64,000 bases of DNA from Rossellomorea marisflavi (lineage in GTDB: Bacteria > Bacillota > Bacilli > Bacillales > Bacillaceae_B): positions 4,347,001-4,411,000 of the forward strand of contig CP033051.1 in NCBI GenBank assembly GCA_003667865.1, in the 5' to 3' direction. The position numbers and the translations under genes are program-made. The first letter of the stretch is position 1; every line of letters begins with the position of its first letter. The notes under the pieces are model-generated. The model did no database searches, was not told the origin of the DNA, and saw only the letters and a list, made by a program, of their open reading frames with translations. Positions 22,173 to 28,655 of this stretch are shown piece after piece.

Positions 22173-23309
22173 TTAAATAGATAAAGCATTTTCTAGATCT
22201 TCAATTAGATCCTCAACATCTTCAAGTCCAACAGATATACGTACAAGTCCATCTGTTATTCCTAGCTCTTGTCGACGCTCAGGTGGAATAGAAGCATGTG
22301 TCATTCTTGCAGGAACGGAGATAAGGCTCTCAACTGCCCCTAAACTTTCTGCAAGTGTAAAATACTTCGTTTTTGCTAGTAGCTTATCTGCCATTTCCTC
22401 ACTGCCAACATCAAATGAAATCATCCCTCCAAAGCCCGAAGCTTGACGTTTTGCCACTTCATGGTTTGGATGAGATTCTAAGCCAGGATAGTATACCTTG
22501 CTTACGCTTGGATGATTCACTAGGAAATCGACAATGCGTTTTGTATTTGATTCTGTTTCTTCCATACGTAACGCAAGAGTTTTAATACCTCTCATTAGTA
22601 ACCAAGAATCTTGAGGTCCAAGGATACCACCAGTAGAATTTAACACAAAGTGAAGATCCTGAGCTAACTCGTCTGAATTGACAACTACTAGACCTGCTAC
22701 AACATCACTGTGTCCACCAAGATACTTCGTTGCACTGTGAAGAACGATGTCTGCACCTAAGGATATTGGATTTTGCCAGTACGGCGTGCTAAATGTATTG
22801 TCTACGATTGTTAATAAATTGTGCTTTTTCCCTACTTCAACAGCTGCTTTTACATCTGTTACTTTTAGTAATGGGTTTGTAGGCGTTTCGATATAAACCG
22901 CTTTTGTATTCGGCTTAATTGCCCCTTCAATTTTTGAAATATCACTAGTATCAACAAATGTTGAATCTATTCCAAGTCTGTTCAGTACTTTTGTCATCAC
23001 ACGGTATGTCCCACCGTATACGTCATCTGTTAATACTACATGATCACCTGAATTAAACAGCATCATAATGGCAGTTATAGCTGCCATACCAGAACCGAAT
23101 GCAAATCCTTTCTTACCACCCTCTAAATCCTTTATAAGCTCCTCAAGTGCAAAACGAGTAGGGTTTCCAGTTCTAGAGTACTCATAGCCCTTAAAGTTTC
23201 CAACACTCTCTTGCTTATAGGTACTTACCTGATAGATTGGAACTGACACCGCTCCTGTATGTGGATCATTTGGAATTCCGCCATGAATCATTTGTGTTTT
23301 TTTTCTCAT
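22173..23309 (-). CDS. mccB: Cystathionine gamma-lyase / homocysteine gamma-lyase
   Basis: PLP enzyme of the Cys/Met metabolism family, 378 residues: splits cystathionine to cysteine in reverse transsulfuration. Landmarks: [39 protein letters not shown] and the PLP lysine in [13 protein letters not shown], then [11 protein letters not shown]. The ATG is one base after the mccA stop and its AAGGAGG lies inside the end of mccA, so the two are coupled. A CymR orthologue is encoded at 50.5 kb. Confidence 0.95.
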
Positions 23310-23310
23310 A

Positions 23311-24237
23311 TTAAATTCCTCCTTCGTAAATTTTCTTACTTAAATATCTTTCACTTGAATCCGGGAAAATGGTAACAATGTTGGTTCCAGGTTTTGCTTG
23401 TTGAGCTTCTAATAGTGCTGCTTTCATAGCAGCTCCAGAAGAACTTCCAACCAGAAGACCTTCCTTAATAGCAAGCTCCTTCACAAGCTGAAAGGCATCC
23501 TCATCTGTCACAGTATGAATACCATCAAAATATTTTGTATCCATGTATCCAGGGAGGAATTCCATCCCTATTCCTTCGGTTTTGTGAGGGCCAGACTCTC
23601 CACCGTTTAAAATAGAGCCTTCAGGTTCAACGATAACGGTTCTAACTTCTTTTGATTGATCCTTCAAATATTGTGCTGTCCCCATAAATGTACCACCTGT
23701 TCCTGCACCAGCAATGAAGATATCAACCTTTCCGTCCATCTGCTCCCATAATTGAGGGCCTAATGTCTTGTAATAGGTTTTAGGATTTGCTTCATTTTCA
23801 AATTGTAAAGGCGCATAGGAATTAGGCGTTGACTCTACAAGTGCTTTTGCTTTTGCAATCGCTCCTGTCATACCTTCACTTGTTGGAGTATGTACAATCT
23901 TTGCTCCAAGTGCCTTCATTAGCTCTTGTTTTTCAATACTAAATTTTTCAGGAACACAGAAGACAACCTGATAATCTGAACCTACGGCTGCAAGTGCCAG
24001 GCCAATCCCCGTGTTACCTGCTGTTGGTTCAATAATAACGCCACCAGGCTTAAGATTTCCCTTTTCTACGGCATCTTTTAATAGCTCAAGTCCAAGACGG
24101 TCTTTAATACTCCCACCTGGATTGTAAAATTCTAGCTTGGCAAATAAACGAACACCTTCAGGTAATGAAAAATTTGTGAGCTCGACAATAGGAGTATGAC
24201 CAATTAGTTCATGTACACCTTTATATACGTTTTTCAA
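23311..24237 (-). CDS. mccA: O-acetylserine-dependent cystathionine beta-synthase
   Basis: 308-residue PLP enzyme that joins homocysteine and O-acetylserine to give cystathionine. Fold type II motifs: [13 protein letters not shown] (PLP lysine), [12 protein letters not shown] (substrate loop), [12 protein letters not shown] (phosphate loop) and VGSSSGAA. It lacks the heme and CBS domains of eukaryotic CBS. TTG start 6 bases after GGGGGG. Context with mccB decides for MccA over cysteine synthase CysK, which is very similar. Promoter directly upstream. Confidence 0.93.
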
Positions 24238-24291
24238 GAAATTCCCCCCTATTACATAGATCCTATTAATGTATTTTTTACTTCCCCTTCT

Positions 24292-24320
24292 ACTATATAG
24301 AGTTTAACGATTTTCTTCAA
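24292..24320 (-). promoter_or_regulatory. Sigma-A promoter of mccAB
   Basis: On the minus strand TTGAAG and TATAGT are 17 bases apart, 55 bases before the mccA start. GGAATTG overlaps the -35 box; the AT-rich region with GGAATT could be a CymR site, but I cannot confirm it. Confidence 0.55.
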
Positions 24321-24354
24321 TTCCGACAATCCCTATATGCTTAATTTATAATAT

Positions 24355-26443: not shown

Positions 26444-26477
26444 TCCCTTTTCCTCCAAACTCATTCTAATACATGGA

Positions 26478-27779
26478 CTACTTTTCTAATGTCTTAAATA
26501 AACGAGCAACCTCGTAAAATACCTTTTCTTGGTCAATTGTAAGCACTTCTTTATTTTTCACTACCTGTTTACCTTTTACAAATACATCGTTTACATCTCT
26601 TCCAGAACCAGCATAGACAATATGTGATACCGCATCATGCTTTGGATGGTAGAACGGTTGGTTCGTATCAATGATGATGATATCCGCCTGCTTACCAACC
26701 TCTAGACTTCCGATTGATTGTTCCAACCATAGTGATTGGGCGCCATTTATCGTTGCCATCCTTAATGCTTCACCTGCAGTAATAAGTGTTGAATCATATT
26801 GAATCCCTTTATGTAAGATAGCTACTTGCTTCAGTTCCTCAAATAAATCTAAATTGTTGTTGGATGCTGAGCTGTCTGTACCTAGAGAGACTGTAATGCC
26901 CTTTTCTAGAAAATCTTTAATAGGAGCAATTCCACTTGCTAGCTTCAGATTACTAATAATATTGTGTGAGACTTTAACATCATATTTTGCCAGTATATCC
27001 ATTTCTTCTTCTGTTACATGTACTGCGTGCGCAAGAAGTGTTGGGCGCTCAAATACACCAATACTTTGTAAATGCTTAACAGGAAGTTTCCCGTACTCTC
27101 GTTGAATTTGCTCTACTTCTGTCTTTGACTCTGACATATGAATATGGATCGGTAAATTAAGTTTTTCAGCTGCATCAACGATTTGTTTAATATACTCAGG
27201 AGTACATGTATAGGCAGAATGAGGGGACATCATGGTTGTAATTCTTCCATCTGCACCGTTGTTCCAGTTTTCCGCAAAATTTGTTGCCTCTTCAAGCTTA
27301 GATTTTCTTAATTCATCTGAGCCAAAGCCGATTACTCCTCTACATAGCTTTGCGCGAATTCCAGAGTACTCAACGGCTTGAGCGACTTCATCTAAATTAT
27401 CATACATGTCTACAAAGGTTGTCGTTCCTGTACGAAGCATTTCTAGAATGGATAGATACGCTCCCCATCTCGTATGTTCAGGAGTATAGCGTTCTTCTAG
27501 TGGCCACATTTTTTCTTGAAGCCATTGCTCAAGGGGCAGATCATCCGCATAGCCTCTTAAATAGGACATCGGTGAGTGACCATGTGTATTAATCAGACCT
27601 GGCAAAATGTAATTCCCTTTTGCATCTATCACTTCATCATAAGATGAAAGGTCTTCCGGCACTTCACCTACATATGTAATGTCACCATTTTCAAATGCAA
27701 TGGCTCCATTTGAAAAGACATCATTTTTTTCATTTACAGTTATAATTGTTCCATTAACAATAATTTTACGCTCTGACAT
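26478..27779 (-). CDS. mtaD: 5-methylthioadenosine/S-adenosylhomocysteine deaminase
   Basis: Amidohydrolase-superfamily deaminase, 433 residues from the ATG giving MSERKIIVNG, 7 bases after AGGGTG; a longer frame upstream is unsupported. Metal ligands: NTHGHS (His66, His68), HIHMSE, HAVH and GTDSSASNN. These proteins deaminate SAH, MTA or adenosine to the inosyl form; which one is used here cannot be read from sequence. It lies between yrrT and mtnN on the same strand and is absent from this place in B. subtilis. Confidence 0.9.
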   Translation of the reverse strand: MSERKIIVNGTIITVNEKNDVFSNGAIAFENGDITYVGEVPEDLSSYDEVIDAKGNYILPGLINTHGHSPMSYLRGYADDLPLEQWLQEKMWPLEERYTPEHTRWGAYLSILEMLRTGTTTFVDMYDNLDEVAQAVEYSGIRAKLCRGVIGFGSDELRKSKLEEATNFAENWNNGADGRITTMMSPHSAYTCTPEYIKQIVDAAEKLNLPIHIHMSESKTEVEQIQREYGKLPVKHLQSIGVFERPTLLAHAVHVTEEEMDILAKYDVKVSHNIISNLKLASGIAPIKDFLEKGITVSLGTDSSASNNNLDLFEELKQVAILHKGIQYDSTLITAGEALRMATINGAQSLWLEQSIGSLEVGKQADIIIIDTNQPFYHPKHDAVSHIVYAGSGRDVNDVFVKGKQVVKNKEVLTIDQEKVFYEVARLFKTLEK

Positions 27780-27910
27780 CTTGTCACACCCTATTCTTTT
27801 AAATGTTACACACATGCTCTTCGTAACATACATTATGTAATACACTTACCTTTAGGTAAACGTTCTTATATCTACTCTAGTATCTATACCACTTACGGTT
27901 AATCAAAAAT

Positions 27911-27977
27911 AAATCACCTTAGCATACTAGTTTAAATACTAAAAAAGTACTTAAAAATTTATAAGCTAAGGTGATTT
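27911..27977 (-). terminator. Long-loop hairpin between yrrT and mtaD
   Basis: AAATCACCTTAGC and GCTAAGGTGATTT form a perfect 13-bp stem with a 41-base AT-rich loop; on the minus strand ATTTTTG follows. It probably ends yrrT transcription and separates it from mtaD. Confidence 0.6.
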
Positions 27978-28013
27978 TATCATACTGTCTTGTCGACAAA
28001 AAGTTTTTCAAGC

Positions 28014-28655
28014 TTAATTTATCTTTTCTGCTTCCATTAACCAAACAAATGCATTTTGTTTTGTAAAAGTAACCGAGAAACCATGATCTTGAAGAATACC
28101 TTCTAATACAGGAATTGTTGTGTAATATTCCCTTTCTAAGTCCTCAGCTAAATTCAGAAAGCCTTTGTCTTTTGATGCTTGAATGATGCCTTTGAAATGA
28201 CGCTCTGTTTCAAACATCGTGTCTGCGAAAACAATTTTTCCACCCATTGATAATAGGTTGCTATATTTCTCGATGGCAATTGATTTCTCTTCATCTGTCA
28301 AATGATGAAAAGCGTACGTACTTACTATCGTATCAATTGATTCCTCTATTTGAAATTCAAGAAAGTCGCCATCTCGAAATTCTGCACGATCTCCGATTTT
28401 CTGTTTCCCAATCGCTCTCATTTCTGGTGAAGGTTCAACAGGAATAACCGCAAGTCCTCTGCTTAGTAGCTTATTCGTTAAATTACCCGTACCCGGTCCG
28501 AATTCAAGTACAGTGCCAAACGATTTCTCAGCAACAGCATCTAAAATACCTTCATAATTTGAAAAAACTTCTTTATACTCAATATCTTTACCTTCTACAG
28601 AATCATCATATGAATCAGCCCAATCTTGAAATAAATCAAGAAATTCTCTACCCAT
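28014..28655 (-). CDS. yrrT: SAM-dependent methyltransferase YrrT
   Basis: 213 residues, the same length as B. subtilis YrrT and with the same opening (MGREFLDLFQDWADSYDD). Class I motifs: VLEFGPGTGNLTNKL (SAM binding), VIPVEPSPEMR and IDTIVSTYAFHHL. In B. subtilis yrrT heads the yrrT-mtnN-mccA-mccB-yrhC operon controlled by CymR; here it is the first of the split-up cluster. Substrate unknown, but its product SAH feeds the genes that follow. Confidence 0.93.
   Translation of the reverse strand: MGREFLDLFQDWADSYDDSVEGKDIEYKEVFSNYEGILDAVAEKSFGTVLEFGPGTGNLTNKLLSRGLAVIPVEPSPEMRAIGKQKIGDRAEFRDGDFLEFQIEESIDTIVSTYAFHHLTDEEKSIAIEKYSNLLSMGGKIVFADTMFETERHFKGIIQASKDKGFLNLAEDLEREYYTTIPVLEGILQDHGFSVTFTKQNAFVWLMEAEKIN

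Follow-up and report, generated by a model that had tools for sequence, protein, structure and literature searches.

A candidate S-inosylhomocysteine route in Rossellomorea marisflavi: a deaminase-mtnN/sahH cassette in a genome without luxS

How does a Bacillus relative recover homocysteine from S-adenosylhomocysteine (SAH) when one locus encodes a nucleosidase, a deaminase, and a homologue of SAH hydrolase side by side? The question is raised by positions 22173 to 28655 of a 64,000-nucleotide stretch of the Rossellomorea marisflavi genome (assembly GCA_003667865.1, contig CP033051.1, positions 4,347,001 to 4,411,000, forward strand; hereafter the window). A preliminary description of this locus reported that the yrrT-mtnN-mccA-mccB cluster, the arrangement that we take to be that of B. 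subtilis, is interrupted here by a deaminase gene and an opposite-strand gene of the SahH family, and it offered two routes to homocysteine, one through MtnN and LuxS and the other through S-inosylhomocysteine (SIH). All six genes (mccB, mccA, sahH, mtnN, the deaminase gene, and yrrT) are present as reported, except that the sahH reading frame opens at 24409 rather than at 24424. The route through MtnN and LuxS does not operate here because luxS is absent from the genome. We consider it probable that a three-gene cassette entered the native locus, replaced mtnN, and assumed the function of LuxS through the SIH route. The exchange of luxS for the cassette is itself well supported, and the chemistry is deduced from the encoded proteins. 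The features of the locus are as follows (positions in the window).

22173..23309, minus strand: mccB, cystathionine gamma-lyase/homocysteine desulfhydrase, native to the genus
23311..24237, minus strand: mccA, cystathionine beta-synthase/cysteine-synthase-like, native to the genus
24409..25686, plus strand: sahH/SIH hydrolase gene, 425 aa, with HLEAK (HxExK) at 60-64, the AGHFD gate at 301, and AADGHP at 351
25688..25735, no strand assigned: hairpin, a 20-pair palindrome between the convergent mtnN and sahH, likely a two-way terminator
25745..26464, minus strand: mtnN, methylthioadenosine (MTA)/SAH nucleosidase, 239 aa, differing from the MtnN native to the genus
26478..27779, minus strand: deaminase gene (dadD-like, MTA/SAH/5'-deoxyadenosine type), 433 aa from the ATG at 27779
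27911..27977, minus strand: hairpin in the gap separating yrrT from the deaminase gene, with T-rich sequence after it (terminator or attenuator)
28014..28655, minus strand: yrrT, S-adenosylmethionine (SAM)-dependent methyltransferase-like, native to the genus
29489..30199, minus strand: yrrS (DUF1510), the first gene of the conserved flank

Absence of luxS and exchange of mtnN

The R. marisflavi genome is a single contig of 4,591,517 bases with a listed completeness of 100%, and a search of it with the luxS profile PF02664 gave 0 matches; in a control, the same profile matched five of 14 genomes, B. subtilis among them. The GTDB family was represented by 36 genomes, R. marisflavi included, which all belong to one genus. 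Of these, 35 have luxS and R. marisflavi alone lacks it, and a full-length SahH is present in R. marisflavi only (1/36), where it is encoded by a single gene. Partial SahH matches, of approximately 63-127 residues and with E values of 2e-6 or weaker, are all that is present in 23 other genomes of the genus. The absence of luxS is what the rerouted methyl cycle suggested in the preliminary description requires, and the gene combination is seen in one of the 36 species of the genus.

The former luxS site was predicted from gene order, and 400 kb of the R. marisflavi genome were read there. Thirteen neighbors from the congener luxS region match this genome at 122.8-136.0 kb, including an 82-aa open reading frame (ORF; 70-73%) and a gene at 133601 (80%), and two short ORFs match in addition, one of 56 aa (54-61%) and yidD (68-75%). 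In the congeners, luxS sits between the 56-aa ORF and yidD, and a lipoprotein-like gene follows yidD (both names are ones that we presume for these genes). The R. marisflavi site retains the order 82-aa ORF, 56-aa ORF, yidD, and gene at 133601, from which luxS and the lipoprotein-like gene are gone; searching the 400 kb at E 0.01 recovered neither. A luxS remnant at the old site was considered and rejected, as the tblastn matches are at chance level (best E 1.0). The luxS gap contains a 42-base tandem repeat of 4.4 copies with 90% matches (L236:12771-12953, corresponding to 132771-132953 in R. marisflavi; L, G, f, and g numbers are our handles for loci, genomes, families, and genera).

Additional variation in luxS is visible among the congeners. 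In G034 (L194:7673-11000), the LuxS gene lies between yrrT and mccA, and the LuxS E values are near 1e-52 in G015, G016, G019, G033, and G034 and near 1e-48 in the other 30 genomes of the genus, which may hold two kinds and places of LuxS.

In eight of the 11 congener loci (L179-L185, L197), the order mccB-mccA-mtnN-yrrT is found beside yrrS-pbp-greA-udk, and in the other three (L195, L196, L198), mtnN adjoins yrrS without yrrT and mccAB. The R. marisflavi proteins are similar to those of the eight loci for mccB (83-84%), mccA (73-78%), yrrT (62-65%), greA (84-86%), and udk (88-90%), whereas MtnN reaches 37-39%. The MtnN proteins of 28 of the 35 congeners (loci L151-L178; the other seven are G002, G012, G015, G016, G019, G033, and G034) are 81-100% identical among themselves and 37-40% identical to that of R. 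marisflavi; in five of the remaining seven congeners, the value is 35-36%. Because yrrT, mccA, and mccB are 62-84% identical to the congener genes but MtnN is only 37-40% identical, the native mtnN must have been exchanged, a deaminase-mtnN pair facing sahH having taken its place. The cluster that the preliminary description called interrupted has thus also lost its native mtnN to this exchange. The incoming protein passes the nucleosidase model TIGR01704 (179.5 against a cut-off of 73.8), and its residues E17, E18, E182, and D205, presumably catalytic, are invariant across 7 sequences.

Phylogenetic trees, which omit duplicates, matches covering <85% of the query, and matches below a set identity, place the MtnN of R. 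marisflavi with those of Calidifontibacillus and family f47 (support 0.96), apart from the native congener MtnN (1.0). In a species tree of seven flanking proteins, midpoint-rooted and built with 11 of the 35 congeners, R. marisflavi and eight congeners group with a support of 1.0, and three congeners fall outside. In the SahH tree, R. marisflavi pairs with Halalkalibacter okhensis (0.97) and deeper support is weak (0.19); support around its deaminase is 0.76-0.83. Base composition was tried as a sign of transfer and decides nothing: the three cassette genes are ordinary, although mtnN ranks first among 13 genes in G+C content at third codon positions (GC3; 0.333, followed by 0.319).

The arrangement also bears on expression and does not demonstrate joint regulation. 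The locus is not a co-oriented four-gene operon of the B. subtilis type: sahH, flanked by the minus-strand genes mtnN and mccA, is itself on the plus strand and faces mtnN across the strong two-way hairpin, and the second hairpin separates yrrT from the deaminase gene. For the palindrome between mtnN and sahH, the fold z-score is -9.3 on one strand and -8.5 on the opposite one; its two sides are rich in A and in T, respectively. The hairpin between yrrT and the deaminase gene has a z-score of -4.6 by folding and is absent from the list of the terminator scan. A terminator-like site follows mccB (22145-22120), the deaminase-mtnN gap measures 13 bases, and a gap of 171 bp with promoter-like sites precedes sahH. 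Over the region, promoter-like sites are not in excess (21 against 24.1 in shuffles), and terminator-like sites are barely more common (5 against 3.8). The hairpins and the terminator-like site suggest separate transcription units, likely yrrT, deaminase-mtnN, sahH, and mccA-mccB. Riboswitch control was rejected: the only Rfam matches in the window that reached the gathering threshold, a 6S RNA and a T-box leader (59007-59193 and 62415-62651), are far from the locus and unrelated to it.

Among the native proteins, MccB passes NF005810 (728.8 against a cut-off of 594), MccA is slightly below the cysK cut-off (347.7 against 350.95), and YrrT is a generic methyltransferase by the family models.

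Predicted substrates and the proposed pathway

The hydrolase passes two adenosylhomocysteinase models (685.9 against a cut-off of 275 and 615.9 against 497.6), neither of which can separate SAH enzymes from SIH enzymes. The closest solved structure is the Pyrococcus furiosus SAH hydrolase (SAHH) 7r37, with 554.7 bits over 411 residues without a gap, followed, after a variant of the P. furiosus protein, by the Methanococcus maripaludis SIH hydrolase (SIHH) 7r3a with 513.9 bits. Thermotoga-type chains score approximately 484-499 bits, the human enzyme 332, and the Pseudomonas enzyme 230. The solved enzymes align across nearly the entire length of the hydrolase.

A more specific indication comes from the nucleobase motif HxExK, which is present as HLEAK at residues 60-64. 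According to the accessible part of Koeppl et al. (2024, PMC10978960), HxExK enzymes prefer SIH and HxTxE(Q) enzymes prefer SAH; the Glu of HxExK contacts N1 and the Lys contacts the C6 oxygen of hypoxanthine. The hydrolase is predicted from this fingerprint to prefer SIH, in agreement with the type proposed in the preliminary description. It also lacks the 40-residue insert and has a shortened C-terminus (the P. furiosus match stops 3 residues before its end), two features that are also found in SAH-preferring archaeal enzymes.

In the accessible part of a review (PMC13406329), HxExK is named as a hallmark of T. maritima and of euryarchaeal species. In the alignment of 80 relatives of the hydrolase, the motif is present in 80/80, of which, by title, 79 are from Bacillota (Paenibacillus, Brevibacillus, Cohnella, clostridia, and others) and 1 is from Thermococcus; these relatives are the best 80 of at least 571 confirmed ones, picked by similarity to the query, and do not represent SahH proteins at large. 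The likeness to methanogens that had been pointed out therefore holds, in that a deaminase and an HxExK hydrolase occur in a genome without LuxS, but it is not special to methanogens.

The deaminase is of the amidohydrolase type. Its ORF extends to 27845 through an in-frame GTG, and the 433-aa form from the ATG at 27779 was used. Nine metal, catalytic, and pocket positions of Thermotoga TM0936 are retained (H55, H57, H200, D279, E203, H228, W75, E84, and H173). R147 matches Arg136 of TM0936, and K161 occupies the place of Arg148 within a gapped loop; in TM0936, these two arginines hold the homocysteine carboxylate. In alignments with solved relatives, the residue at the Arg136 place is Ile in 4dyk (which we take to be the P. 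aeruginosa MTA deaminase), Cys in 4f0r, and Ala in 3lnp. The Arg/Lys pattern points to a TM0936 kind of enzyme and not to an SAH-only role. As a mark of SahH-linked deaminases, Arg147/Lys161 was rejected, as it is also present in deaminases of luxS-positive genomes without SahH. R. marisflavi has no second close full-length relative of the deaminase (one weak 63-residue match is present besides) and is the only genome of the genus with a close one (1/36), relatives at 27-33% identity being present in 4 others.

Taken as a pathway, the cassette (24409-27779, deaminase-mtnN facing sahH) would have been inserted in the yrrT-mtnN-mccA-mccB locus and luxS deleted elsewhere. SAH yielded by methyltransferases would be converted by the deaminase to SIH, which the HxExK hydrolase would cleave to inosine and homocysteine; MccA and MccB would carry homocysteine to cysteine, or it would be remethylated, and inosine would enter purine salvage. 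SIH made by the deaminase is the proposed substrate because of the fingerprint and the neighboring deaminase gene, both here and in clostridia. MtnN would mainly clear MTA and 5'-deoxyadenosine. Without LuxS, the S-ribosylhomocysteine formed by MtnN would be a dead end that gives no homocysteine by a known route, so SahH most likely closes the cycle. Homocysteine is thus likely to form from SAH mainly by the SIH route, whose substrates and flux are predicted from the proteins encoded.

Distribution and competing explanations

Among 397 genomes of the order, SahH is present in 5 and luxS in 385, and luxS is missing in 5/5 SahH carriers against 7/392 of the others (Fisher 1e-8, uncorrected for kinship). 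In the 386 genomes that are >=90% complete and <=5% contaminated, the corresponding values are 3/3 and 6/383. Three of the five carriers share one genus, and the carriers therefore represent three lineages, in families f1, f17, and f28. Four genomes of that f28 genus (G088, G130, G189, G239) have luxS and lack SahH. Among 26 named SahH carriers, which are those searched of 27 hand-picked for spread among the 80 relatives, luxS is missing in 24. A deaminase relative (E<=1e-60) is present in 26/26 of these, with best matches 36-73% identical, and a homologue at least 60% identical is present in 5/5 order carriers. The order sample also contains seven genomes that match neither luxS nor SahH (G078, G094, G122, G195, G261, G277, G299), and G209 and L039/G046 are apparently one assembly.

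The survey of gene neighborhoods called for in the preliminary description found sahH beside a deaminase gene in several lineages. Calidifontibacillus oryziterrae has yrrS-deaminase-mtnN facing sahH; the layout lacking mtnN, with yrrS-deaminase facing sahH, occurs in H. okhensis and three f28 genomes. In nine of the 80 loci, all clostridial (L061, L063-L067, L069, L072, L073), the gene directly downstream of sahH and co-oriented with it encodes a 38-47% identical deaminase; in the clostridial L084, the deaminase gene is near sahH but on the other strand. No deaminase match was found in the examined flanks, of up to 10 kb, of the Paenibacillus and Brevibacillus loci. In the loci read from f17, f28, and f47, yrrS borders the cassette or part of it. 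That the cassette is an exchangeable module, which has displaced LuxS several times in Bacillales, beside yrrS in three lineages, and silenced autoinducer-2 (AI-2), is a tentative proposal to which we give slightly less than an even chance.

Several results weigh against a takeover of LuxS work by the SIH route. The SAH-only enzyme of Sulfolobus acidocaldarius (7r39) also scores 476 bits against the hydrolase, and overall similarity accordingly does not settle the substrate. Of 62 matched NCBIfam families, the deaminase falls below the cut-off in each of the 25 listed (402.3 against 779 for NF012037 and 380.3 against 522 for NF005557). A second MtnN of congener G002 (L186:9621-10319, 43% identical to that of R. 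marisflavi), located away from the native locus, sits on the R. marisflavi side of the MtnN tree. In two of the five order carriers, G214 (80% complete) and G264 (62%), both in f28, the absence of luxS is less sure, and luxS is kept in 2/26 named carriers, Paenibacillus sinensis and P. tyrfis, whose genomes (loci L006 and L023) combine an HxExK hydrolase with luxS. All three cassette genes together are seen only in R. marisflavi and Calidifontibacillus, and six genomes of f47 g62 (L271-L276) have yrrS-deaminase-mtnN with luxS and without sahH, a possible half-cassette. Additionally, a deaminase (E<=1e-90) is present in 103/397 order genomes; luxS is present in 97 of these 103, and the deaminase was rejected as a marker of luxS loss.

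The last result leads to the main rival, in which SahH alone replaces LuxS by splitting SAH into adenosine and homocysteine, and the deaminase independently serves 5'-deoxyadenosine or MTA, by-products of radical-SAM and polyamine metabolism. It fits the co-occurrence of luxS loss with SahH rather than with the deaminase and the existence of the Arg147/Lys161 deaminases in genomes that keep luxS. In the accessible part of Koeppl et al., every assayed enzyme, HxExK included, kept some SAH activity (PMC10978960, Table 1), and the deaminase may therefore be dispensable. The fingerprint, however, predicts a preference for SIH, and a deaminase homologue accompanies the hydrolase in every named carrier and, at high identity, in every order carrier. 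sahH moreover adjoins the deaminase gene or is one gene off in R. marisflavi, Calidifontibacillus, H. okhensis, three f28 genomes, and ten clostridial loci. On this evidence, direct hydrolysis of SAH is rather unlikely to be the whole explanation.

A different objection concerns origin and leaves function aside: the cassette may be ancestral at the yrrS locus and lost in most Bacillales, with a few lineages losing luxS instead. The presence of the whole or a part of it beside yrrS in four families (f1, f17, f28, f47) speaks for this history, but the occurrence of SahH in 5/397 order genomes would require many losses, R. marisflavi is nested within luxS-bearing congeners in the flank tree, and its MtnN stands apart from the native one. 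The SahH and deaminase trees are weakly supported inside (0.19-0.83). We regard this history as unlikely. For the R. marisflavi lineage, we lean to transfer, given its nested position among luxS-bearing species that have a different MtnN; the recurrence beside yrrS may reflect flank recombination or an old arrangement with losses. We infer the transfer, the order of events, and the loss of AI-2. It is very improbable that SahH is an unexpressed passenger in a cell that exports S-ribosylhomocysteine or SAH and recycles no homocysteine. The seven order genomes that match neither gene indicate that life without both seems possible, but the R. marisflavi gene is full length with its motif positions kept, and promoter-like sites are present in the gap upstream, though regionally no commoner than in shuffles. 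The conversion of SAH through SIH remains the reading that we prefer.

Relation to known systems

The role of LuxS, in AI-2 signaling or in metabolic recycling, has long been debated, as stated in the accessible parts of two papers (PMC2561040, PMC524169). The swap of LuxS for an AI-2-free route, in a genus in which the 35 other species examined have luxS, offers a natural test of these roles, as R. marisflavi should be unable to make AI-2. If the proposal is true, the genus provides a natural before-and-after pair, from an AI-2-producing route to an SIH route. It would also extend the SIH route to Bacillota, including named Paenibacillus and Brevibacillus species in culture that carry the motif together with a deaminase homologue, and Bacillota proteins annotated as adenosylhomocysteinase may act on SIH. 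The pathway itself is already known, having been described for Euryarchaeota and Thermotoga in the literature consulted. The openly licensed papers searched gave no description of the SIH route or of a deaminase-mtnN/sahH cassette in Bacillus relatives, nor of the cassette form with the luxS swap.

Compared with the cluster of B. subtilis and the congeners, the R. marisflavi locus retains yrrT, mccA, and mccB as native orthologues in their order and place, but its mtnN is exchanged, a deaminase gene and an opposite-strand sahH are added, and hairpins suggest separate transcription units. With the Pfs/LuxS methyl cycle, it shares the MTA/SAH nucleosidase; luxS is absent, so the Pfs/LuxS route cannot close. 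The combination of an amidohydrolase-type deaminase with an HxExK hydrolase is the same as in the DadD-SIHH pair of M. jannaschii and in T. maritima, which has a deaminase and TmSAHH. In the accessible parts of the respective papers, T. maritima also encodes an MTA nucleosidase (MTAN; PMC10978960), Thermotoga is described as lacking LuxS and having Pfs with an SAH hydrolase, and luxS-negative thermophilic Firmicutes with an SAH hydrolase are reported (PMC6022435). Unlike in Methanocaldococcus and Thermotoga, the R. marisflavi genes are adjacent, together with mtnN, in the mccAB locus of a Bacillus relative and have been swapped against luxS within a genus. In the accessible part of Sun et al. 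(2004, PMC524169), sahH and luxS are mutually exclusive, with two organisms named as exceptions, and Pfs/LuxS is present in all Firmicutes then sequenced. The alternation described there is between larger groups, whereas that of R. marisflavi lies within one genus and involves a hydrolase of the predicted SIH type.

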